Notes under the pieces: model-generated | Databases searched by the model: none | What the model was told of the DNA's origin: nothing | Seen by the model: the letters and a program-made list of their open reading frames with translations, nothing else | Made by a program: the position numbers and the translations under genes | Shown here: in pieces, positions 1 through 41,022 of the stretch | How positions within the stretch are numbered: the first letter of the stretch is position 1 | How the letters are laid out: each line of letters opens with the position of its first letter | Assembly (NCBI GenBank): GCA_021787985.1 | Contig: JAJYLG010000022.1 | Span: forward strand, 1-42,773 | Source of the DNA: Chloroflexota bacterium | Lineage (GTDB): Bacteria; Chloroflexota; Dehalococcoidia; DSGV01 | Reading direction: 5' to 3' | Length of the DNA stretch: 42,773 nucleotides

Positions 1-120
1 ATGGGCTGCTTCCAGAACATGGACAGCGCCGAGCGGGTGATGTACGCCATCGCCACCCGGCTCAACGCAAAATGGGAGGGCCGCCCGCTCCCTCACTTCA
101 AAAGTCCACACTCATCTTGA
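1..120 (+). pseudogene. Possible transposase C-terminal fragment (mutator/IS256-like)
   Basis: An open frame runs from the window edge to a TGA at 118-120. It encodes about 39 residues, beginning MGCFQNMDSAERVMYAIATR and containing KWEGRPLP. The pattern (an FxN-S-RV-A-LN core followed by W-RPL and a short basic tail) resembles the C-terminal end of mutator/IS256-type transposases, but this is recalled similarity, not a search. Nothing of the catalytic DDE domain is inside the window, so I cannot tell whether this is the end of an intact gene or a remnant. No terminal inverted repeat is evident between its stop and the next gene. It could also be the tail of an unrelated protein. Confidence 0.4.
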
Positions 121-26739: not shown

Positions 26740-27431
26740 ATCGGGCCGACGGAGAGCGCGGTTTCCACCTGCTCGCGCAGCCGCGCGATGGCGGCCTCGA
26801 TCCCGTCCGGGTGCTCGAAGACGTATGAGCCGGCGACCAGCACGTCGGCGCCGGCGCGCACGACCTCCGCGGTGGTGTCGCCGTTCACACCGCCGTCGAT
26901 CTCGATCAGCGTCGACAGGCGGCGTGCGTCGAGCAGCCGTCGCAGCTCGCGGGTGCGCCCCGCGGTGGCAGCGATGAACGGCTGACCGCCCCAGCCTGGG
27001 TTCACGGCCATCAGCACGATCAGGTCGGCCACGTCGAGCACCGGCTCGATGGCCGTGAGCGGCGTGCCGGGATTGACCGCCACCCCGGCCATCACGCCCA
27101 GCCGCTGGATCGAGCCGAGCACACGGTGGATGTGTACCGTGGCCTCGACGTGAACGGACATCGAGCGTGCGCCCGCGGCGACGAACGCCTCCACGTGCCG
27201 CTCCGGATTCTCCACCATCAGGTGCACGTCCATCGGCAGGTCGCAGGAGCGGCGCACCGCGTCGGCCACCAGTGGCCCCAGGGTGATATTGGGGACGAAG
27301 TGCCCGTCCATCACATCGACGTGGATCCATCCCGCGCCGGCGTCCTGGGCGGCACGCACCTCCGTGCCCAGGCGCGCGAAGTCGGCGCTGAGGATCGAGG
27401 GCGCGATGACCACCGGCCGGCGTGCGCTCAT
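26736..27431 (-). CDS. rpe: Ribulose-phosphate 3-epimerase
   Basis: Rpe interconverts ribulose 5-phosphate and xylulose 5-phosphate in the pentose phosphate pathway. The 231-residue barrel protein has APSILSADFARLG, HVDVMDGHFVPNITLGP, MDVHLMVENPERHV, a VAVNPGTPL turn, VLMAVNPGWGGQPFI and EIDGGVN with the expected Asp, and the closing DVLVAGSYVF. The ATG at 27431 overlaps the argH stop by four bases (ATGA), so it is the last gene of the argG-HAD-HAD-argH-rpe operon. Confidence 0.96.
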   Translation of the reverse strand: MSARRPVVIAPSILSADFARLGTEVRAAQDAGAGWIHVDVMDGHFVPNITLGPLVADAVRRSCDLPMDVHLMVENPERHVEAFVAAGARSMSVHVEATVHIHRVLGSIQRLGVMAGVAVNPGTPLTAIEPVLDVADLIVLMAVNPGWGGQPFIAATAGRTRELRRLLDARRLSTLIEIDGGVNGDTTAEVVRAGADVLVAGSYVFEHPDGIEAAIARLREQVETALSVGPI

Positions 27432-28930
27432 CGTCGCTTGGACTTCCTGCGTGGTTTCGGGGTGGCAGGCACTTCCTCGCCGCCGGTTTGCAGCTCGCGC
27501 AGACGCTGGCGCACGGTCTGGCGCGCGTCGCGCAGCGCCGCCTCGACCTGCCGGCGCGCGGTCCCGCCGGGCACGTCGCGTGAGGCGATGCTGCGCTCCA
27601 CCGTCATGCCGGCCGCGTCCTCGGCGAAGAGCGGGGAGTACGCCTGGAGCTCCGCCAGCGAGAGATCGGTAAGGTCCACTGCCCGCGCCTCGCAGTCGCG
27701 CACCATTCGACCGACGAGCTCGTGAGCGTGGCGGAAAGGCATTCCGCGGCGCGCCAGGTAGTCGGCGTAGTCCGTGGCCAGGGCGAAGCTTCCCGATGCG
27801 GCGGCGCGCATCCGCTCGCGGTCGAACTCGAGGGCGGGGAGCATCTCGGCCAATGCGACGAGCGTAAGCATCACGGCATCTTCGGCCGCGTAGAGCGTTC
27901 CTTTGTCCTGCTGCAGGTCGCGGTTGTAGGCGAGCGGCAGCCCCTTGAGGAGTGTCGCGAGCTCGACGAAGGCGGCGACCGGCCTGCCGGTGCGTCCGCG
28001 GGCCAGCTCGGCGATGTCCGGGTTCTTCTTCTGAGGCATGATGCTCGATCCGGTGGCCCAGGCATCGGGCAGGCGCACGAAGCCGAACTCGGCCGTCGAC
28101 CAGAGCACCAGCTCCTCGGCCAGCCGGGAGCAGTGCACGCCGATGATGGCCAGGGTGGCCAGCAGCTCCAGGAGGTAGTCGCGGTCCGACACGGCGTCGA
28201 TGCTGTTGCGCGTGATCTTGGGGAAGCCGAGCTGCTGCGCCACGAACCGGCGGTCCACCGGGTAGGGCACGCCGGCCAGGGCTCCCGATCCAAGCGGCGA
28301 GACGATGACGCGCGCCATGCATTCGTCGAGCCGGTCGGTGTCGCGGTCGAACATCTCGTAGTAGGCCAGCAGATGGTGGGCCAAGAGTACGGGCTGGGCG
28401 CGCTGCAGGTGCGTGTAGCCGGGCATGACCGTGTCGGTCTCACGCTCGGCGACGCGCACGAGGGCGTCCTGCAGGGCGAGAAGGGACTCGAATATGCGGT
28501 AGACGGCCTGGGCGGTGTACAGGCGGAAGTCGGCCGCCACCTGGTCGTTGCGCGAGCGCGCGGTGTGCAATCGATAGCCGATCTCACCCACGCGCTGGAC
28601 GAGGAGCTGCTCCACGGCGCTGTGCACGTCCTCGGCGTCTTCGGGCAGCTCGAGCCGGTCCTCGTCCGCCTCGGTGGCCATTTGATCGAGCGCCTGCACG
28701 ATGTGGTCGGCCTCGCCGCGGTCGATGATTCCCTGGCGGCCAAGCATGCGCGCGTGGGCGATGGAGCAGAGGAGGTCCTCGAGCAGGAAGCGGCTGTCTT
28801 GCGCCAGGCTGCTGGTCGTGAGGAAGGCGATCGGGTGCACGCTCTCCTTGAAGCGGCCGCCCCACATGGCGGCGGCATGCGTCTCCTCGGGCGGCGGCCC
28901 GGCCGCGCGCTTCGCCTTGTCCTGTGCCAT
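27428..28930 (-). CDS. argH: Argininosuccinate lyase
   Basis: ArgH splits argininosuccinate into arginine and fumarate, the last step of arginine synthesis. The 500-residue protein has MWGGRFKE, HTARSRNDQVAADFRL, PGYTHLQRAQPVLLAHH, the Ser-containing signature GSSIMPQKKNPD, and GLPLAYNRDLQQDK. The ATG at 28930 overlaps the stop of the upstream HAD gene by one base (TGATG). The N-terminal 20 residues and a C-terminal Arg/Lys tail of about 35 residues extend past the family core. It lies in one operon with argG, separated by two HAD phosphatase genes. Confidence 0.96.
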   Translation of the reverse strand: MAQDKAKRAAGPPPEETHAAAMWGGRFKESVHPIAFLTTSSLAQDSRFLLEDLLCSIAHARMLGRQGIIDRGEADHIVQALDQMATEADEDRLELPEDAEDVHSAVEQLLVQRVGEIGYRLHTARSRNDQVAADFRLYTAQAVYRIFESLLALQDALVRVAERETDTVMPGYTHLQRAQPVLLAHHLLAYYEMFDRDTDRLDECMARVIVSPLGSGALAGVPYPVDRRFVAQQLGFPKITRNSIDAVSDRDYLLELLATLAIIGVHCSRLAEELVLWSTAEFGFVRLPDAWATGSSIMPQKKNPDIAELARGRTGRPVAAFVELATLLKGLPLAYNRDLQQDKGTLYAAEDAVMLTLVALAEMLPALEFDRERMRAAASGSFALATDYADYLARRGMPFRHAHELVGRMVRDCEARAVDLTDLSLAELQAYSPLFAEDAAGMTVERSIASRDVPGGTARRQVEAALRDARQTVRQRLRELQTGGEEVPATPKPRRKSKRR

Positions 28931-29742
28931 CAGCGTCGCTCCTCTGCGGTCTCGTCCGGGACAGCGGACGCTGCGGGCAGCGCTCCGGCCTCGCGGCGCG
29001 CGAAGAAGTAGGGCAACCAGCGGATCTCGCGCAGGTCGTCGATGCGGTGATCGGGATGCAGTCCCGGCGGCAACGGGTGGAGGCGCGAGCCGTTGCGCTT
29101 CCAGCAGGTGCGCATGCCCAGCATCGCGGCAGGCTGGAGGTCCGCCAGCGGGCTGTCGCCGACCAGGAGGGCATCGCCGGCGGGCACGTCGAGCGCCGCG
29201 AGGGCACGCGCGAAGATCTCCGGATGCGGCTTCAGCCAGCCGCAGTCGCAGGAGCAGACGGCCGCGGTCACGTACGCCGCCAGTCCCGCGGACTGGAGCT
29301 CCGCGGCGAGCAAGGGCCCGCCGAACCAGCGGTTGGAGACCACCCCGACGGCGTACCCGTGACCGCGGAGCCAGGCCAGGGTCTCCGCCGCGTCCGGATA
29401 CACCTGTCGGCCCAGCGAGTCCGGGTGGATGAACGCGGCCTGCCACAGCGCGTCGCGAAGGTCCGGGTCAAGGGTCAGCCCATGGCGGGACGCAACGCGT
29501 TCGAGGATTGCCGGGCCATCGGGTGCGGCCAGATTGCCGTGGTGCGCCGACTCGAGCGCCGCCTCCATGGCGGTGTGCAGGTCGGCGGCGAAGCACACGG
29601 CGTCCCAGCCAGCGGGCAGGCCGTGTCCATCGAGCGTGCGTGTCACGGCCCGCGCGACGAGGGTGTGTAGGTGCCCGCGCTCGATGGGGATCGGCATCTG
29701 CCAGAGCGTGTCGCCGAGGTCGAAGAGCACGGCCCGCAGCAT
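28930..29742 (-). CDS. HAD superfamily phosphatase, first of a tandem pair
   Basis: A 270-residue HAD hydrolase (subfamily IA). Motif I is MLRAVLFDLGDTLW (Asp nucleophile near residue 8 and the second Asp two on), motif II is VGVVSNRWFGG, motif III is the lysine in GWLKPHPEIF, and motif IV is LVGDSPLADLQPA (GDSxxxD). The cap lies between residues about 20 and 115. These enzymes hydrolyse phosphoesters. It shares clear sequence elements with its downstream-coordinate neighbour (29743-30519), consistent with tandem duplication. The ATG directly follows the other gene's stop, and it lies before argH. The substrate is unknown. Confidence 0.88.
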   Translation of the reverse strand: MLRAVLFDLGDTLWQMPIPIERGHLHTLVARAVTRTLDGHGLPAGWDAVCFAADLHTAMEAALESAHHGNLAAPDGPAILERVASRHGLTLDPDLRDALWQAAFIHPDSLGRQVYPDAAETLAWLRGHGYAVGVVSNRWFGGPLLAAELQSAGLAAYVTAAVCSCDCGWLKPHPEIFARALAALDVPAGDALLVGDSPLADLQPAAMLGMRTCWKRNGSRLHPLPPGLHPDHRIDDLREIRWLPYFFARREAGALPAASAVPDETAEERR

Positions 29743-30515
29743 TCAGGCGCCTCCGAACGCCGGGTGGGTCAGCAGATCCGCGACCGACCCGACCACGAGG
29801 TCCGGGCGAGCGGAGGGGTCGCCCTCGGCGACCGGCCAGACGCGGTCCTCCTCGGCCGGGGAGGACGGTTGCCGCCATACGGCCCACATGCCGGCGCGGT
29901 GCGCGCCCCACACGTCGGCCCGCAGCGAGTCGCCCACCACGGCCGTCTGCTCGGGTGCGACGCCGAGATCGGCGGCGGCTCGCAGGAAGATGGCCGGCTG
30001 TGGCTTGCGCAAACCGGCATCGCAGGACACCTGGAGCGTGGCGAAGTAGCGAGACAAACCGCACTCCTCGAGCTCCGCGCGAAACCGTGGACCGCCATAG
30101 GCGCGGTTGGTCACACAACCGAGGAAGAGCCCGCGGGCGGTGAGCTGTTCGAGCGTGGGTAGGGCTTCCGCCAGCAGCTCGCGACCATACGCGGCGCCGC
30201 CCAGGTTCCAGGCGCCCCACGCGGCTTCGGCCAGCGCGCGATCGCCCGGCAGGCCGGCGGTGGCGAGCGCAGCGCGGACCATCTCGACGTAGTCGAGGCT
30301 GAGCGCGTCGTCCAGAATGGCGCGCCGGGTCAGCGCGCGCAGCCGGTCGCGGACGTCCGCCCACAGTGCGGCCGGGTCTTCGACCGCGAGGCCGTGCTCC
30401 GCGAAGCAGCGGGCCAGACGCTCGCCGCCCAACCGGCGCAGCTCCTCGCCCGACGGGCGGCGCGGGAAGTGCCAGAGCGTGTCGCCGAGGTCGAAGAGCA
30501 CGGCGCGGAGGGGAT

Positions 30516-30519
<4 letters not shown>
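29743..30519 (-). CDS. HAD superfamily phosphatase, second of a tandem pair
   Basis: A 258-residue HAD hydrolase with motif I MNPLRAVLFDLGDTLWHF, motif II GCVTNRAYGGPRF, motif III LRKPQPAIF and motif IV VVGDSLRADVWGA. It resembles the 28930-29742 product in motifs and in flanking segments (for example NR-GGP-AEL with YF or YV), so the two are tandem paralogues. The ATG at 30519 overlaps the argG stop by four bases (ATGA). The stop is next to the first HAD start, so all are translated together. A role in removing a phosphorylated by-product of nearby metabolism is possible, but inferred only from position. Confidence 0.88.
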
Positions 30520-31748
<1,229 letters not shown>

Positions 31749-31865
31749 GGCATCGCCAGTATCGCAGGTCGGATCGCTACAGGCAGCCGTGCGGTTGGCT
31801 GTTGGCAGGCGCCAGCGTGGCGGGGGGCGACCCGGTGGCAACGACGGCACGGTGCGCCGGCTATC

Positions 31866-32408
31866 ATGGACGGCGAGGTTCGAGCTCGGATGGCCGTGCC
31901 GCAGAAACGACCTACCCCGCAGCCGTCGCGTGGCGCCGCCCGTCGCGCGCCGTTGCCGTGGCACTTCAAGCTGATGCTGGGCGCCGCCGGCGTGTACGTC
32001 GCGGCGCGCGTCGTGCAGGTCCTGGGCTGGTTGGGGGTGAGCCTGGCGCAGGTGCACCTGGCCTGGGGCGTGGTCGTCTGCGCGCTGAACGTGGTGGTGG
32101 CGGCCTGGGGGCTGCTGATGTGGCGGCGGGGGCGTCCGGCGATCGTCGGGTTCTGGTGGTTAACCGCGACCGCGTGGGCGTCAGTGGTGCCGCAGGTGCT
32201 GCTCGGCGTGTGGCTCTACGCCGAGGGCCATCGCGCGCCGCTCGGTTGGCAGCACTACGTCTACGGCCCGGCGCTGCTGGTCCTGGCGGCCTTCGGTCTG
32301 CTCGAGCGCAAGCACATGCCGGGACGTGAGGGGCTGCTGTTCGGCGTGGTCTCGCTGCTGATCGCGCTGGCGGCGGCGCGCGGTCTCTGGACGGGGCTGA
32401 GCGCTTAG
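31866..32408 (+). CDS. Small integral membrane protein of unknown function
   Basis: A protein of about 180 residues (or 172 from ATG 31890) with a basic N-terminus (RPTPQPSRGAARRAPLPW) and four hydrophobic segments: LMLGAAGVYVAARVVQVLGWLGV, LAWGVVVCALNVVVAAWGLLMW, PAIVGFWWLTATAWASVVPQVLLGVWLYA plus HYVYGPALLVLAAFGLL, and LLFGVVSLLIALAAARGLW. I do not recognise a family. It is the only plus-strand gene between argG and argD, and its TAG stop interlocks by four bases with the argD TAA stop. There is no sign of a metabolic link to arginine genes. Confidence 0.75.
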   Translation: MDGEVRARMAVPQKRPTPQPSRGAARRAPLPWHFKLMLGAAGVYVAARVVQVLGWLGVSLAQVHLAWGVVVCALNVVVAAWGLLMWRRGRPAIVGFWWLTATAWASVVPQVLLGVWLYAEGHRAPLGWQHYVYGPALLVLAAFGLLERKHMPGREGLLFGVVSLLIALAAARGLWTGLSA

Positions 32409-33610
32409 CCGCGTTTCGCGCGCGCGTGCAGCGCGTCCTCGATGATCCCCAGCGCGCGGTCCAGCTCGCGCTCGGTCACCGTGAGCGGCGGCAGGAAACG
32501 GACGGTCGTTGGTCGGATGGCGTTGGCGATCAACCCGCGGCCCAGTAGGTCCGACGACAGCTCGTCGGCGACCTCGCTGTCGAGCTCCATCGCCACCATC
32601 AGGCCGCGACCGCGCACCTCGCTGATACCGGGATGCCGGTCCTCGATCGACCGCAATCCGGAGATGAAGCGCCGGCCCTTGCTCGCCGCTTCATCGGGCA
32701 AGTCGTGCTCGATGACGTGGCTCAGGACGGCGAAGCCGACGGCGGTGGCGAGGGGGTTGCCGCCGAAGGTGGTGCCGTGGTCGCCGGGGTCGAAGGCGGA
32801 CGCAACCTCCTCGCGGGCGAGGAACGCGCCGATGGGCACGCCACCACCCAGGCCCTTGGCCACGGTCATGATGTCCGGCCGGGCGCCGGTGAGCTGCCAG
32901 CCGAAGAGCCGGCCGGTTCGGCCGACCCCGGTCTGAACCTCGTCCACGATGAGCAGGATGCCGTTCCGGTCGCACCATTGCCGCAGGCCGGGCAGGTAGT
33001 CGTCGTCCGGCACGATCACGCCGGCCTCGCCCTGGACGGCCTCGACGATGATGGCGCAGGTCCGGGGCGTCGTGGCCGCCTTGATGGCGTCCAGGTCGTT
33101 GTACGGCACGTGGAAGAAGCCCGGGGGCAGTGGTTCGAAGGGCGTGCGGTACTTGACGGTGCCGGTCGCGGCGAGCGCGCCCATCGTGCGCCCGTGGAAC
33201 CCGCCGACCGTGGCGATGACCTCGAATGCGCCGCCCTTGCGCACCTTGCCCCACTTGCGCGCCAGCTTGAGCGCGCCCTCCACTGCCTCGGCCCCGCTGT
33301 TGCAGAAGAAGACGCGGTCCAGGCCGGTCGACTCGGTCAGGAGCTCGGCGAGCTCGATCTGCGGCGTGGTGTAGAAGTAGTTGCTGACGTGGATCAGCTT
33401 ACGGGCCTGGTCCTCGAGCGCGTGCACGACGACGGGATGCGAGTGCCCGAGCACGTTGACCGCGATCCCGGCCAGGAAATCCAGGTACTCGTTGCCGTTC
33501 GCATCCCACACGCGGGTGCCTTCGCCGCGCACGAGGACGATGGGCAAGCGCTTGCCCGTCTGCATGTAGAGGTGCTTCTCCAGGGTTTGCCAGTCGCGGT
33601 CGATCGCCAT
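32405..33610 (-). CDS. argD: Acetylornithine aminotransferase
   Basis: ArgD transfers an amino group from glutamate to N-acetylglutamate semialdehyde, giving N-acetylornithine. The 401-residue class III aminotransferase has YLDFLAGIAVNVLGHSHP, FCNSGAEAVEGALKLAR, GGFHGRTMGALAATG, IIVEAVQGEAGV, LIVDEVQTGVGRTG and the Schiff-base lysine in TVAKGLGGGVPIGA, then GTTFGGNPLA. The ATG at 33610 has a GGAG site 8 bases upstream; an ATG at 33625 is an alternative. It is 237 bases after argB on the same strand. Succinyl-diaminopimelate or lysine-pathway activity cannot be excluded, as ArgD is often bifunctional. Confidence 0.94.
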   Translation of the reverse strand: MAIDRDWQTLEKHLYMQTGKRLPIVLVRGEGTRVWDANGNEYLDFLAGIAVNVLGHSHPVVVHALEDQARKLIHVSNYFYTTPQIELAELLTESTGLDRVFFCNSGAEAVEGALKLARKWGKVRKGGAFEVIATVGGFHGRTMGALAATGTVKYRTPFEPLPPGFFHVPYNDLDAIKAATTPRTCAIIVEAVQGEAGVIVPDDDYLPGLRQWCDRNGILLIVDEVQTGVGRTGRLFGWQLTGARPDIMTVAKGLGGGVPIGAFLAREEVASAFDPGDHGTTFGGNPLATAVGFAVLSHVIEHDLPDEAASKGRRFISGLRSIEDRHPGISEVRGRGLMVAMELDSEVADELSSDLLGRGLIANAIRPTTVRFLPPLTVTERELDRALGIIEDALHARAKRG

Positions 33611-33739
33611 GGCACACTCCGTCATGGGGCGGGCATCGGCGGCATCGACTCCGGTAGCCGGGCGAGCCTGGGCGTCATCGTCGGCAGCCTCTGTGCCATG
33701 CCCCGCGAGGCCTCGGGCGCGAGGGAAGTCCTGCGCGCG

Positions 33740-33769
33740 ATCGTACGCGGCGGACGACTCCGGTCGCAA
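33740..33769 (-). promoter_or_regulatory. Weak promoter candidate before argD
   Basis: On the minus strand TTGCGA (33764-33769) and TACGAT (33740-33745) are 18 bases apart, each matching four of six consensus bases. This 237-base gene-free interval (33611-33847) separates argB from argD, and I find no ARG box or coding sequence in it. Confidence 0.25.
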
Positions 33770-33847
33770 GCTCGCGCACGGGGCCGCCACCGGGACGAGC
33801 GTCGATCATCTCGGGCAGTCGAGCGGCCGCGAGCGCGAGCCGATCGG

Positions 33848-34651
33848 TTAGCGGCCGGGGACGACGCGCGTGCCGAGCGGCCGTCCGCGCAGGGCCGCCA
33901 CCAGCGCGCGGGGGGCCCGCGCGTCCAGGATCACGGCGCGGCATCCGGCGGCGGCGGCGACCATGGCCCCGTCGACCTTCGGCAGCATGCCGCCGGCGAT
34001 CACCTTGCGGCGGACGAGGGTGCGCACGTCGGAGGGGCCGAGGCGGGCGAGGCGCTGGCCGTCGCGATCGCGTACGCCGTCGACGTCGGTGGCGAACACG
34101 AGCCATCCGGCGCGCAGGGCGGCCGCGAGCGCGCCCGCTGCCGCGTCGGCGTTCACGTTCAACAGCTCACCTCGGGGGCCCAGGCCGATCGGGGCGACGA
34201 CCGGCGTCGTGCCCAGGTCGAGTAGCTCCTCCAGCAGCTCGCCACGGACGGCAACGACGCTGCCGACCAAGCCCAGCTTGGGGTCTTCGAGCTCGCAGCG
34301 CAGCAGGCCGCCGTCGGCACCGCTCAGGCCGAATGCGTCGGCGCCCCGCCGACGCAGCCCGGCGACGAGGCTCTTGTTGACGAGGCCGGCCAGCGCGGCG
34401 GCGGCAACGTCGAGCACGTCCGATGTCGTGACGCGCAGCCCGCGCTCGAACTGCGATGGGATGCCGAGCCGGTCGAGCCACTGGGAGATGAGCGGCCCGC
34501 CGCCGTGCACGAGCACCACGCGCCAGCCGGCGACCGCGAGCGCCGCCACGTCGTCGAGCGTGGTGTCGGCCTCGCCGAGCGTGCTGCCGCCGATCTTGAC
34601 GACGAGCGCGCCGGACGGTGGGGGCAGCTCGTCAGGTGGTGTAGTCAGCAT
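33848..34651 (-). CDS. argB: Acetylglutamate kinase
   Basis: ArgB phosphorylates N-acetylglutamate with ATP. The 267-residue amino acid kinase has VVKIGGSTL at the start, VVLVHGGGPLISQWL, LSGADGGLL, VAPIGLGPRGELLNVNADAAAGALA, FATDVDGV, KVIAGGMLPKVDGAMVAAAAG and a short C-terminus. This is the classical ArgB pattern. The ATG at 34651 overlaps the end of argJ by 20 bases, so translation is coupled. The C-terminal sequence lacks the N-terminal helix of arginine-inhibited hexameric forms, so feedback control is uncertain. Confidence 0.94.
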   Translation of the reverse strand: MLTTPPDELPPPSGALVVKIGGSTLGEADTTLDDVAALAVAGWRVVLVHGGGPLISQWLDRLGIPSQFERGLRVTTSDVLDVAAAALAGLVNKSLVAGLRRRGADAFGLSGADGGLLRCELEDPKLGLVGSVVAVRGELLEELLDLGTTPVVAPIGLGPRGELLNVNADAAAGALAAALRAGWLVFATDVDGVRDRDGQRLARLGPSDVRTLVRRKVIAGGMLPKVDGAMVAAAAGCRAVILDARAPRALVAALRGRPLGTRVVPGR

Positions 34652-35867
34652 TGATGTGCACGTACTCAGGAGTGAGGTCGCAGCCCCAGGCCGTCGCGGC
34701 CGCCTCGCCCAGCCCGAGATCGACGCTGATGCTGACCTCCGGCGCGGCCAGCGCCTGGCGCAGGGCGGGCTCGTCGATCGGTAGCGGGCGGCCGCAGTCG
34801 AACACGCGGACGCCGGCGAAGTCGACCGACATTCGCTCCTCGACCAGCGGCACGCCGGCACGACCCGCCGCCGCCACGACGCGGCCCCAGTTCGGGTCGC
34901 GCCCGTGGATGGCCGACTTGACCAGCATCGAGCCGGCGATCGTCCGGGCGACGCGGCGTGCGGCCTCGCGGTCGGGAGCGCGGACGGTGCGGACCTCGAT
35001 CAGGTGGCCCGCGCCCTCGCCGTCGGCCGCGATCGAGCGGGCCAGGTGGCGGCAGACCGCCTCCAGCGCGTCGCGGAAGGCTGCGGCCACGTCCGGCTCG
35101 GAGCTGCTCAGCCCGCTGGCCCCGTTCGCGAAGCACAGCAGCGTGTCGCTCGGGCTGGTATCGCCGTCGACCGTGACCATGTTGAAGGTGTCGTCCGCCG
35201 TCTCGGTGAGCCAGCGTCGCAGGTCGTTCGCGGGCACGGCCACATCCGTCGTGATGAACGCGAGCGTCGTGCCGAGGTCGGGGTGGATCATGCCGCTCCC
35301 CTTGGCGCAGCCGGCCACGCGGGCGGAGGCGTCGCCCAGGCTGAACTCGACGGCCACCTGCTTCGGCCGCGTGTCGGTGGTCATGATTGCCTGGGCGAAA
35401 CGGGCACCGCCGACGCGCGAGAGCTTCATGCCGGGCACCACGGTGGCGATCCGCTCGATCGGCAGCGGACGGCCGATCACGCCCGTGGAGGCCACGCCCA
35501 CCTCGCGGGGGTCGAGCCCGAGGGTGGCTGCCACGACCTCGGTCATGCGGCGGGCATCGGCCAGCCCCTGCGGTCCGGTGGAGGCGTTGGCGTTGCCGCT
35601 GTTGACGATTACCGCGCGCAGGCCGCTCGGGGCGGGCCGCTGCGCATGCTCGACACAGACCTGGACCGTGGCGCTGCGCACCGCACTGCGCGTGAAGAGT
35701 GCGGCCGAGGCGCACGGCTCCCGGGAGTAGAGAATGGCGACGTCGAGGCGCGCGTCGCCGTGCCCGCGTACGTCGGCGCTGCCCGCGCCCGCGACGAACC
35801 CGAGCGGCACGGTGACATGGCCGGCCGGGTCCACGACCAGCGGCGCCGCCGGACGCGCGGCGGTCAT
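34632..35867 (-). CDS. argJ: Bifunctional ornithine acetyltransferase/N-acetylglutamate synthase
   Basis: ArgJ recycles the acetyl group from N-acetylornithine to glutamate, the cyclic route of arginine synthesis, and may also make N-acetylglutamate from acetyl-CoA. The 411-residue precursor self-cleaves at a conserved Thr. The region KGSGMIHPDLGTTLAFI corresponds to the usual MATML site, with Thr kept but Gly replacing the preceding Ala. Other signatures are VNSGNANASTG, IGRPLPIERI, VTVDGDTSPSDTLL, HGRDPNWGRVVAAAGRAGV and EYVHINADYT at the end. The ATG at 35867 overlaps the argC stop (ATGA). Confidence 0.95.
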   Translation of the reverse strand: MTAARPAAPLVVDPAGHVTVPLGFVAGAGSADVRGHGDARLDVAILYSREPCASAALFTRSAVRSATVQVCVEHAQRPAPSGLRAVIVNSGNANASTGPQGLADARRMTEVVAATLGLDPREVGVASTGVIGRPLPIERIATVVPGMKLSRVGGARFAQAIMTTDTRPKQVAVEFSLGDASARVAGCAKGSGMIHPDLGTTLAFITTDVAVPANDLRRWLTETADDTFNMVTVDGDTSPSDTLLCFANGASGLSSSEPDVAAAFRDALEAVCRHLARSIAADGEGAGHLIEVRTVRAPDREAARRVARTIAGSMLVKSAIHGRDPNWGRVVAAAGRAGVPLVEERMSVDFAGVRVFDCGRPLPIDEPALRQALAAPEVSISVDLGLGEAAATAWGCDLTPEYVHINADYTT

Positions 35868-36895
35868 GGGTAGAGGGCCGCTGCCTCGAGCCCGCGCGTC
35901 TCCGGTAGGCCGAGGCGGATGTTCATGCACTGCACGCCCTGGCCGGCGGCTCCCTTGACCAGGTTATCGACGGCAGCCACGGCCACCATGCGGCGGCGCT
36001 CCGGGTCGACGGTGACGTGGACCAGGCAATCGTTGGTGCCGAGGGTGTGCTTGGTGGCGGGCGGCGTCTCCACGAGGTGGGTGAAGGGCTCGGCGGTGTA
36101 CGCACGCTCATAGGCGGCCCGCAGCACAGAGGCGGCGTCGTCGCGGCCGCGCAGGCCGTCCGCCAAGGGGGCGTAGCAGGTGGCGAGGATGCCGCGCGTC
36201 ATGGGCACGAGGTGCGGCACGAACGTCACCGCGGGCGCGACGCCCTCGCGCAGGGCGGCCAGCTCCTGGCTGATCTCGGGCAGGTGGCGATGACCGTCAA
36301 GGGCGTAGGCGGAGACGCTCTCGTTCGCCTCGGCGAAGTGATAGGTGAGGCCGAGGCCGCGCCCGGCGCCGCTGATGCCGCTCTTCGCGTCCACGATCAC
36401 GTCGCCATTCACGAGGCCGGCGCGCACGGCCGGCGCCACCGCCAGGATGGCCGCCGTTGGGTAGCAGCCGGGACACGCGATGATCCCCGCGGTGCGGATG
36501 GCGTCGCGGTGCAGCTCCGGCATGCCGTAGACGGCGCGGTCGAGCAGCTCAGGTGCGACATGGGCATGGCGGTACCAGCGCTCGTAAACGGCGGCATCGC
36601 GCAGACGGAAGTCGGCCGAGAGGTCGATGACCGGCACGCCGCGACGGACGAACGGGAGCAGCGTCTCGGCCGCGGCGGCATGCGGCAGAGCCGAGAAGGC
36701 CAGGTCGCCGCGCTCCGTCTCCGTCTCAATCGCCAGGTCGAGGCGCGCGAGGTGTGGGAAGACCTCGCCCAGCCGCTTGCCGGCCGCGCTGCGGCCCGTC
36801 ACCGCGACGATGCGCACGTCGGGATGGTGGGACAGCAGCCGCGCCAGCTCCGCTCCGGCGTACCCGGTCACGTTCAGGATCGCGACGTCTATCAT
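35864..36895 (-). CDS. argC: N-acetyl-gamma-glutamyl-phosphate reductase
   Basis: ArgC reduces N-acetylglutamyl phosphate to the semialdehyde with NADPH. The 343-residue protein has MIDVAILNVTGYAGAELARLL (here TGYAGAEL rather than GASGY), the catalytic Cys in IACPGCYPTAAIL, AKSGISGAG, and EISQELAAL with FVPHLVPMTRGIL. The ATG at 36895 is 37 bases below nth; the short gap contains no strong promoter, so argC may be co-transcribed with nth. It heads the argC-argJ-argB group. Confidence 0.95.
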   Translation of the reverse strand: MIDVAILNVTGYAGAELARLLSHHPDVRIVAVTGRSAAGKRLGEVFPHLARLDLAIETETERGDLAFSALPHAAAAETLLPFVRRGVPVIDLSADFRLRDAAVYERWYRHAHVAPELLDRAVYGMPELHRDAIRTAGIIACPGCYPTAAILAVAPAVRAGLVNGDVIVDAKSGISGAGRGLGLTYHFAEANESVSAYALDGHRHLPEISQELAALREGVAPAVTFVPHLVPMTRGILATCYAPLADGLRGRDDAASVLRAAYERAYTAEPFTHLVETPPATKHTLGTNDCLVHVTVDPERRRMVAVAAVDNLVKGAAGQGVQCMNIRLGLPETRGLEAAALYP

Positions 36896-37607: not shown

Positions 37608-37743
37608 GAGCGGAGAAGGGCCGCGGCGCCGGTTCGCGTGGCGCCGCCCACGGGGGCGTTCCAGGGCCTCATCATCTGGAAGCGTAACGCAGGCCCGGCG
37701 TACGGTAGATGCAAGGCGCGCCAAGGGCGCACGAGGAGGTCGC

Positions 37744-38796
37744 GTGACGCGGGAAGAGGTGCGGATGACCGCCCTGACCGCTTGCGGCGGCTGAGCGTCG
37801 AAGCTGGGCCCTGAGGCCCTGGCGCAGGTACTGCGCCGGATCGCTCCGCTGGTCGCGCAGGCGAATCGTCCCGAGGTCGTCGTTGGGCTGAACGAGCCCG
37901 ACGATGCCGCTATCGTGCGCCTTGCTCCCGACCTGGCGTTGGTCCAGACGGTCGACTTCTTCCCGCCGGTCCACGACGATCCCGTAACGTGGGGCGAGAT
38001 CGGCGCTGCCAACGCCATGAACGACGTGTTCGCCATGGGCGGCGAGGTGCTGGTGGCGCTCAACGTCGGCGCCTTCCCCGATGACCTCGACCCGGAGATC
38101 ATCGCGGACGTCTTCCGCGGCGGCATCATCAAGGTGCATGAGGCGGGGGGCGCGATTGTCGGGGGGCACACGATGACGGACCGTGAGCCGAAGTACGGAC
38201 TGGCGGTCACCGGCTTGGTCCACCCGGACCGGGTGGTGCGCAAACGCGGTGCGCAACCGGGGGATGTGGTGTTCCTGTCGAAGCCGCTCGGCACCGGCGT
38301 GGTCGTGTCGTCAGTGCGCAGCGACGTGGTGAGCGCAGAGACGTACGCCGGCGCGACCGCGTCCATGCGCCGCCTGGGACGTCACGCGATGCACCTGGCG
38401 CTGGCGCACGACGTCCACGCCATGACGGACATCACTGGCTTTGGGCTGGTGGGTCATGCGGCCGAGATGGCGCAGGCGGGCGGCGTACGGCTGGTGATCG
38501 GGGCGGGGAGGGTGCCGCAGCTCCCGGGCGTGCTCGACCTGTACCGGCGCGGGTACGGCACGGCCGGCACGACGCGCAACGAGGAGTACTATCGGCGCTG
38601 GCTGGACCTACGCGGCGACGTGGAGCCTTCGCTGCTGCGGCTGCTCCACGATCCGCAGACCTCGGGCGGCCTGCTGATGGCCGTCCCGGCCGAGCGGGCC
38701 GAGGCGCTCGACCATGCGGCGACGGCCGAGCATGGGCCGCTCTGGCGGATCGGCGTGGTGGAGGCCGGGGAGCCCGCGGTCGAGGTGCGGCCCTAG
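37744..38796 (+). CDS. selD: Selenide, water dikinase, a selenoprotein with in-frame UGA (Sec17)
   Basis: SelD makes selenophosphate from selenide and ATP for selenocysteine and selenouridine synthesis. From the GTG at 37744 (AGGAGG at 37734-37739) the frame reads MTREEVRMTALTACGG, then TGA at 37792-37794, then ASKLGPEALAQVL, and stays open for 350 residues. The CGGxASKLGP context is the SelD active site, where the x is Cys or Sec, and Lys20 is the conserved catalytic Lys. Thus TGA must be read as Sec. Later motifs NDVFAMGG, GGHTMTDREPKYGLAVTG, DITGFGLVGHA and HDPQTSGGLL are typical. A downstream-only call from the ATG at 37915 would lose the active site. selA, selB and tRNA-Sec are not in this window. 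Confidence 0.93.
37795..37825 (+). promoter_or_regulatory. SECIS-like hairpin after the selD UGA codon
   Basis: The stem GGGCC (37806-37810) pairs with GGCCC (37815-37819) across a CTGA loop. The stem begins exactly 11 bases after the UGA, the spacing of the E. coli fdhF SECIS. Outer GCG/CGC (37795-37797 with 37823-37825) lengthen an imperfect stem. Bacterial SECIS elements vary a lot, so the fold is only suggestive. Confidence 0.55.
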
Positions 38797-38814
38797 CTGC
38801 TGGGGGGGTGGTTG

Positions 38815-39519
38815 GTGCGCAAGTTGCTGCTTGCTGGGATGACGCTGGCGCTCGCGGCGGGCCTGCTGGCCTGCGGCAGCAAGGGCGGGAAGACCAGCGT
38901 GAACCCGGCCGCGCTGTTGAGCGAGGCGGCGGACACGATGGACGCGCTGCCGGGCTTTCACTTCCTCCTGACCCACAAGAACGGCGCCAGCGCCATCGCG
39001 CTCGGGCTGGCGATGACCCGCGCCGAGGGCGACTTCGTGCGGCCGGACAAGTTCCGGGCTGACGTTTCGGCGCGCGTCCAGGGCGGCTTCGTGGTCAACG
39101 TGACGGTGGTGAACGTGGGCGACAAGACCTGGATCAGCAACCCGTTCGCCAGCGGCCAGTACCAGCTCCTGCCCGAAGGCACGAAGACGGGCCAGATCTT
39201 CGATCCCCAGAACGGCCTCATCGCGGCGGTACGCAAAGTCGAGGACCCGAAGGTGACGGGGGCGGAGAAGGTGAGCGGCGTCGAGACCGTGGTGATCGGG
39301 GGGAAGGTCGATGCCGCGGCGCTGAGCTCCATCGCCACCGCCGCGGAGCCCGGGCGCAAGGTAGACGCGACGGTGTGGATCGGCAAGCAGGATCACCGCA
39401 TCTACCGGATCCGGCTCGTGGGTCCGCTGACGAAGGACGAGCCGAGCAACATCGAGCGCGACGTGGCGCTGTCGGGCTTCGGCAAGACGGTAGAAGTGAC
39501 GCCGCCGGCGGGTCAGTAG
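38815..39519 (+). CDS. LppX/LprAFG-family lipoprotein (LprG-like)
   Basis: A 234-residue lipoprotein. The signal MRKLLLAGMTLALAAGLLAC has a good lipobox (LLAC, Cys20). The mature part holds LLSEAADTMDALPGFHFLLTH, RPDKFRADVSARV, GGFVVNVTVVNVGDKTWISNPF and VWIGKQDHRIYRIRLVGPL, typical of the LppX_LprAFG fold. In mycobacteria that fold has a lipid-binding cavity and shuttles triacylglycerides and lipoglycans in the envelope. The GTG at 38815 is chosen; TTG 38812 is possible. It is 18 bases after selD and 9 bases before an MFS transporter, the same order as mycobacterial lprG-p55. Confidence 0.9.
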   Translation: MRKLLLAGMTLALAAGLLACGSKGGKTSVNPAALLSEAADTMDALPGFHFLLTHKNGASAIALGLAMTRAEGDFVRPDKFRADVSARVQGGFVVNVTVVNVGDKTWISNPFASGQYQLLPEGTKTGQIFDPQNGLIAAVRKVEDPKVTGAEKVSGVETVVIGGKVDAAALSSIATAAEPGRKVDATVWIGKQDHRIYRIRLVGPLTKDEPSNIERDVALSGFGKTVEVTPPAGQ

Positions 39520-39528
39520 CAGGGCGCG

Positions 39529-41022
39529 ATGCTTGGCACACAGGCGGCGGTTGCCGGGGCACAACCGGTCGAGCTACGCACGGCACGGTCGCCGTGGCTG
39601 CTCGTGCTCGCGCTGGGAGTGGGCATCTTCGTCGGCGGGTTCGACCAGACCTTCGTGGTGACGATCCTGCCGGACATCCTCAAGGACATCCAGCTACCGG
39701 TGTCGCGTTTCGGCGACGCCTCCTGGATCATCAGCGGCTACCTGCTCGGTTACACCGTGGCGATGCCGCTGATGGGCCGGATCGCCGATGTGTTCGGCCA
39801 CGTCCGGCTCTACTGCCTCTCGCTGCTGCTGTTCATGCTCGGCTCGGTGGCGGTCGCGCTTTCGCCAAGCCTGTGGTGGATCGTGGTCTTCCGCGGGATG
39901 CAGGCGATCGGTGGCGGGGCGCTGGTGCCGATCTCGATGGCGATGGCCGTGAGCATCTTGCCGCGCCGGCGGCGGCCGCTGGCCATCGGCAGCATGACGG
40001 CGCTCGACGACGCGTCGAGCCTGCTCGGTCCACTCTGGGGCGCGTGGTGGGCGAGCCACATCGGCTGGCGCGGCCTCTTCTGGCTCAACCTCCCGCTCGC
40101 CATGCCGATCCTCGTGCTGGTGCCGCTGCTGGCGCGCGAGGTGCCGCGGCAGGAGCGTGTGCCGGTGGACTGGACGGGCGGGTTCATGCTGACGCTCGGC
40201 CTGACGCTGGGCACCGTGGCGTTGACGGATAACGGAGCGGCTCCGCGGCCCCTCTGGATGAGCGTCCTCCTGGGCGCGGCCGGCCTGGCGTTGCTGGCGG
40301 CGTTCACCTGGCGCGAGTTGCGCATCCCCGCGCCGATGCTGGACCTGCGCTACTTCCGCCAGGTGCGGTATCTGGCGGCGAACGCGCTGTACTTCGTCGT
40401 CGGCGCCGGCCTCATCACGGCCATGGTCTGCGTGCCGCTGATCAGCGACACGCTGTACGAGGAGTCGGCCCTGACCGGCGGGCTGAACCTGATGCGGATG
40501 ATGCTGTTCATGCCGCTGGGAGGGGTGATCGGCGGGCTGCTCGCCACGCGCCTCGGGTACCGTACGACGGCCGCGTTGGCGATGGCGATGGCGGGCGTCG
40601 GGTTCCTGCTGATGCGCGGTTGGAGCGTCCCGGCGACGTCAACGGAGCTGTGGCTGACGCTCGGGGTCGCCGGATTCGGCTTCACCCTCGCCGATGCGCC
40701 CGCGGTGGCCACGGTGCTCGACATCGTCAAGGAGCACGAGCGAGCGGCGGCCGCCGCGCTCCTCCAGGTACTGCAGACGACGGGCATGATCGTGGGCATG
40801 GCGCTGCTGGCGACACAGGGCCTTGGCCGCTTCACCGAGCGGGCGGCGGACGTGTTCCGCCGCTTCGGTCTGGAGGGGTCGGAGCAGTACCGCGCCGCGA
40901 TGCAGCAGACGTTCAACGATGTGTTCCTGGTCGCGGGCCTGGCGATGATCGGGGGCGTGGCACTGGCCTGGTTGCTCGAGCGCGGCCGTGCGCGCCGCAT
41001 CCTATGGTGGCGGCCGCTGTAG
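39529..41022 (+). CDS. Major facilitator superfamily transporter, EmrB/P55-like
   Basis: A 497-residue DHA2-type MFS protein with about 14 hydrophobic segments. The proton-coupling motif C region (VVFRGMQAIGGGALVPISMAM) and motif A-like loop (GRIADVFGHVRLY) are visible, with GFDQTFVVTILPDI in the first helix. It ends in a short basic tail. Relatives export drugs, and the mycobacterial relative P55 works with LprG in lipid export. The adjacent LprG-like gene, 9 bases upstream, favours that partnership, although the substrate cannot be read from the sequence. Confidence 0.9.
   Translation: MLGTQAAVAGAQPVELRTARSPWLLVLALGVGIFVGGFDQTFVVTILPDILKDIQLPVSRFGDASWIISGYLLGYTVAMPLMGRIADVFGHVRLYCLSLLLFMLGSVAVALSPSLWWIVVFRGMQAIGGGALVPISMAMAVSILPRRRRPLAIGSMTALDDASSLLGPLWGAWWASHIGWRGLFWLNLPLAMPILVLVPLLAREVPRQERVPVDWTGGFMLTLGLTLGTVALTDNGAAPRPLWMSVLLGAAGLALLAAFTWRELRIPAPMLDLRYFRQVRYLAANALYFVVGAGLITAMVCVPLISDTLYEESALTGGLNLMRMMLFMPLGGVIGGLLATRLGYRTTAALAMAMAGVGFLLMRGWSVPATSTELWLTLGVAGFGFTLADAPAVATVLDIVKEHERAAAAALLQVLQTTGMIVGMALLATQGLGRFTERAADVFRRFGLEGSEQYRAAMQQTFNDVFLVAGLAMIGGVALAWLLERGRARRILWWRPL

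Follow-up and report, generated by a model that had tools for sequence, protein, structure and literature searches.

A Chloroflexota selD gene in which an in-frame UGA very probably encodes selenocysteine

Results

An in-frame TGA at the catalytic position of SelD

Is the TGA that interrupts a selD reading frame in this Chloroflexota genome a stop, an error, or a codon for selenocysteine (Sec)? The gene lies in the window, i.e. the whole stretch of 42,773 nucleotides that was analysed, which is one contig (C22) of a 3.5-Mb assembly that comprises 189 contigs and is 95.6% complete. On re-reading the sequence we recovered what the original prediction had described, an AGGAGG-GTG start followed by a TGA in frame with a 350-residue SelD:

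37734-37739, + strand: ribosome-binding site of selD, AGGAGG, read from the sequence
37744-38796, + strand: selD, selenide, water dikinase, 350 aa with the UGA taken as Sec17; GTG start, TAG stop at 38794-38796
37783-37794, + strand: CxxU active-site motif C-G-G-U, residues 14-17, from the translation
37792-37794, + strand: predicted Sec codon, in-frame TGA, residue 17, at the position of E. coli Cys17; from sequence, alignment and relatives

The read-through product matches the SelD equivalog model TIGR00476 over its full length, with 337.9 bits (E = 5e-101) against a cut-off of 125 bits, and contains both the AIRS and the AIRS_C domains. PDB 3u0o, which we take to be E. coli SelD, could be aligned over residues 4-337 and places residue 17 on its Cys17. 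Lys20 is kept in this alignment (U17-A-S-K20), and the DDAA, NAMNDVFAMGG and TDITGFG motifs align as well: all of the features by which we judged membership in the SelD family (the catalytic Sec/Cys position, Lys20 and the conserved Asp motifs) are found.

We considered whether selD could be a pseudogene, or could be translated only from a start beyond the TGA. The next ATG had been placed at 37915, which proved wrong: the codon there is GTG (residue 58), and the first in-frame ATG lies at 38017 (residue 92). Although a 293-codon open frame does begin at GTG 37915, its product would be without both Sec17 and Lys20, the downstream catalytic motifs are intact, and in relatives the residues that precede and flank the TGA are conserved (RLTxLxxCxGUAxK). 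The start context is likewise orthologous in relatives. We therefore regard a decayed or N-terminally shortened gene as extremely improbable, and favor a full-length SelD translated through the TGA.

Upstream of selD, on the minus strand, lie arginine biosynthesis genes (27428-36895): argJ and argC were assigned by Pfam, argH, argG, argD and argB-like frames were judged by eye, and two tandem HAD-like genes sit between argG and argH. Directly after selD (38812-41022) come a gene for an LppX_LprAFG-family lipoprotein (PF07161, TTG start) and then one for an MFS transporter, an arrangement that we take to resemble the LprG-Rv1410c (P55) pair of mycobacteria. When the entire window was scanned for further in-frame TGA bridges, none but that of selD was convincing; the remaining hits look like neighboring genes that share a frame or like non-coding upstream extensions.

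Codon 17 in related genomes

The claim that the TGA falls at the conserved Sec/Cys position of SelD, already in agreement with the alignment to 3u0o, could also be checked against relatives. Among 73 SelD loci read at codon 17 (a set that takes in our own gene, a few more distant Cys-SelDs from outside the Chloroflexota and some genomes that are closely related), 58 have TGA, 15 have a Cys codon (TGC or TGT) and none has anything else. Because all 73 loci carry one or the other, a chance origin of the TGA can be taken as excluded on this comparison. The nearest named relatives of this SelD are Chloroflexota MAGs with 49-52% identity, all of them with TGA. Within the same class (60 genomes sampled, including our own), 33 of 34 SelD-bearing relatives have one in-frame TGA in SelD; the sole Cys form, with TGC, is that of genome G030, and the remaining genomes gave only fold paralogues or no match. 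A broader phylum sample of 301 genomes yielded SelD at E <= 1e-40 in 240, and a hand count that includes our own genome found TGA in 127 of 150 SelD matches, among the matches listed. UGA-SelD is the prevailing form in the phylum sample. UAG recoding, considered for the SelDs of G191 and G222, was rejected: their TAGs, ~331-334 codons downstream, are the usual stops at the 3' end of the gene, and codon 17 encodes Cys in G191 and is TGA in G222.

These counts bear directly on the possibility that a TGC or TGT was turned into TGA by a mistake in sequencing or assembly, which would make the protein an ordinary Cys-SelD. Only one base separates a Cys codon from TGA, 15 relatives do have Cys codons here, and ours is a single metagenome-type assembly in 189 contigs. 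However, the TGA recurs at codon 17 in 58 of the 73 loci, nearly all assembled independently, and in 127 of the 150 phylum matches among those listed, and the genome encodes a full Sec machinery (below). We consider an error refuted for practical purposes, with a probability close to nil, and continue with the TGA as a genuine codon.

Sec machinery and other selenoprotein genes

The original prediction implied a full Sec machinery and had proposed a search for its genes. None of the three is missing from this assembly: contig C72 encodes SelA (TIGR00474, 490 bits), C8 encodes SelB (TIGR00475, 364 bits) and C86 the tRNA-Sec, with anticodon tca (UCA; 78.7 bits). An apparent second copy of selA on C24 was discarded; the first 602 bases of that contig repeat, in reverse complement and at 98% identity, the first 602 bases of C72, and it is therefore a contig overlap rather than a second gene.

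Our check for selenoprotein genes across the genome covered SelD and the molybdopterin oxidoreductases, and two of the nine matches to the latter (FdhA) contain one in-frame TGA:

L058:1729 and L061:1768 (contigs C112 and C181): FdhA genes with in-frame TGA; strong SECIS-like hairpins of -25.8 and -23.3 kcal/mol

The contexts of these TGAs are CNRT-U-HAPSVVGLATVFG and QARV-U-HGPTVVSLATTFG (...RTUHAPSVV... and ...RVUHGPTVV...), and both correspond to the classical Sec site of formate dehydrogenase. Judged by eye, the QARV-U protein has a twin-arginine-type leader and its gene lies downstream of an FdhD-like frame. Ordinary annotation would cut both genes into pieces. Since no TIGR03167 match (MnmH/YbbB, selenouridine synthase) was found in this genome, its selenium use, of the Sec and selenouridine traits examined, appears to be selenocysteine.

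Co-occurrence of UGA-SelD with the Sec machinery

Among the 60 same-class genomes, tRNA-Sec was found in 31 of the 34 with UGA-SelD vs 2 of the 26 without (Fisher p = 2e-11), SelB above cut-off in 30/34 vs 1/26 (p = 1e-11), SelA in 26/34 vs 2/26 (p = 7e-8), and any of selA, selB and selC in 34/34 vs 3/26 (p = 1e-13); these p-values ignore shared ancestry and overstate certainty because the genomes are not independent draws, and most of the genomes come from different families. The three exceptions without SelD (G002, G045 and G056) are 54-63% complete. In G030, the Cys-SelD genome, selA, selB and selC were looked for and none was detected. SelA had no strong match in 8 of the 34 UGA-SelD genomes (G009, G015, G018, G022, G028, G036, G040 and G054); SelB and/or tRNA-Sec accompany UGA-SelD in each of them, and the missing SelA probably reflects incomplete assemblies or assembly gaps (G018 is 95% complete).

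In three relatives, selA, selD and selB lie on one contig within ~8 kb (G019:C68, G051:C65 and G025:C55), with tRNA-Sec also on that contig in G019 and G025. Our own genome, unlike these, has selA, selD and selB on separate contigs.

That a reassigned or near-cognate tRNA might instead put tryptophan or cysteine at the UGA is hardly credible in a genome that has a tRNA-Sec with anticodon tca and where TGA is the normal stop that ends selA, selB, argC, argJ, argG and argH, and given that UGA-SelD tracks selA, selB and selC, whereas Cys-SelD was found in a genome without them.

Candidate SECIS hairpins downstream of the UGA

If the UGA is decoded as Sec, a SECIS element would be expected nearby. 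The bSECIS model calls for a stem of 4-16 bp, a loop of 3-9 nt with a G in its first two positions, a distance of 16-37 nt from the UGA and a folding energy of at most -7.5 kcal/mol (PMC13188914). Two hairpins come into question:

37806-37819, + strand: first hairpin, GGGCC-CUGA-GGCCC, -8.7 kcal/mol, 11 nt after the UGA
37819-37839, + strand: second hairpin, CUGGCGCAG-GUA-CUGCGCCGG, 9 bp, -14.8 kcal/mol, loop GUA 33 nt after the UGA

The first is the 5-bp GGGCC/GGCCC hairpin of the original prediction, and it does start 11 bases after the UGA as described; it departs from the model only in having no G in the first two loop positions. It is not the best candidate, however: the second hairpin is stronger and agrees with the model in every respect (shuffle z -4.6). 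We thus favor 37819-37839 as the better SECIS candidate on the strength of this modeling, and make no claim as to which hairpin SelB actually binds.

A model-fitting hairpin follows the UGA in 31 of 33 UGA-SelDs, our own included, but also the Cys codon in 2 of 6 Cys-SelDs (L023 and L024), so that a fit to the model is unspecific and, taken alone, weak. Shuffling of synonymous codons separated the two groups: the mean z was -1.06 (loop at +15..24) and -1.22 (loop at +29..40) for the 33 UGA-SelDs vs 0.02 and 0.02, i.e. no excess structure, for the 6 Cys-SelDs. For our selD by itself the excess is weak (z -0.86 and -1.37; p 0.19 and 0.07) because, at 71% GC, the codons for its Gly-Pro and Leu-Ala-Gln-Val-Leu-Arg are prone to pairing. 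We conclude that the region downstream of the selD UGA carries a predicted SECIS.

The CxxU active site

The C-G-G-U at residues 14-17 makes this a CxxU-type SelD as described in PMC2398784. There, in the GOS marine set, the motif is rare (~5.6% of single-domain Sec-SelDs), whereas we found it in 21 of the 33 UGA-SelDs examined. It is the one less usual trait of this SelD, and it is common in the lineage. One might speculate that a reversible Cys14-Sec17 selenenylsulfide gates or protects SelD in this lineage, placing the first step of selenium use under redox control, but we think this rather unlikely.

Discussion

We are highly confident that the gene encodes a Sec-containing selenophosphate synthetase (SelD) in which the UGA would be read as Sec17. 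The central claim of the original prediction, that selD is a selenoprotein gene read through its UGA, is borne out at the level of sequence by selA, selB, tRNA-Sec, the two FdhA genes and the conserved TGA.

From the same data we infer Sec insertion at codon 17, enzyme activity and a SelB-bound hairpin, which could be combined as follows. Translation would start at GTG 37744 and read through codon 17 to the TAG at 38794: SelB, bringing Sec-tRNA-Sec and bound to a hairpin shortly after the codon, would insert Sec at the UGA in place of termination. Sec17, on a mobile N-terminal loop, would then act with Lys20 and the Asp residues of the AIRS fold to convert selenide and ATP to selenophosphate, which SelA would use to turn Ser-tRNA-Sec into Sec-tRNA-Sec. 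This in turn would serve the synthesis of SelD itself and of two or more formate dehydrogenases. Such self-dependence of Sec-SelD, which needs Sec and makes its precursor, is a known circuit, and the present case leaves the understanding of it unchanged.

The practical meaning of the locus is that UGA apparently stands for selenocysteine in an uncultured Chloroflexota lineage, and that selD and the two fdhA genes will be truncated or missed by gene callers for which UGA is always a stop. What the survey adds is that UGA-SelD prevails in the phylum sample and that the sole same-class Cys form comes from a genome in which no Sec machinery was detected.

Comparison with known systems

Sec-containing SelD had been described from the outset as established in other organisms, and PMC1794560 agrees, giving Sec-SelD and FdhA as the two most widespread bacterial selenoproteins. 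Because of this we regard our selD as a well-supported but ordinary selenoprotein gene of a long-known kind. PMC4959059 reports Sec-FdhA in Chloroflexi single cells, and the portions of the literature searched held no explicit treatment of Sec-SelD in Chloroflexota; this lack of explicit mention is a gap in listing, not a sign of a new phenomenon.

Like the bacterial Sec-SelDs of PMC1794560, ours is a single-domain protein whose N-terminal catalytic loop bears the predicted Sec, at the place of Cys17 in E. coli, and it belongs to a genome with selA, selB, selC and Sec-FdhA; it differs from them only in sequence and in its Chloroflexota host lineage, and we found no mechanistic difference. With the Cys-SelD of E. 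coli (3u0o) it shares the fold, the ATP-binding residues and the other catalytic residues, whereas position 17 is Cys there and would be Sec here, which makes recoding necessary.
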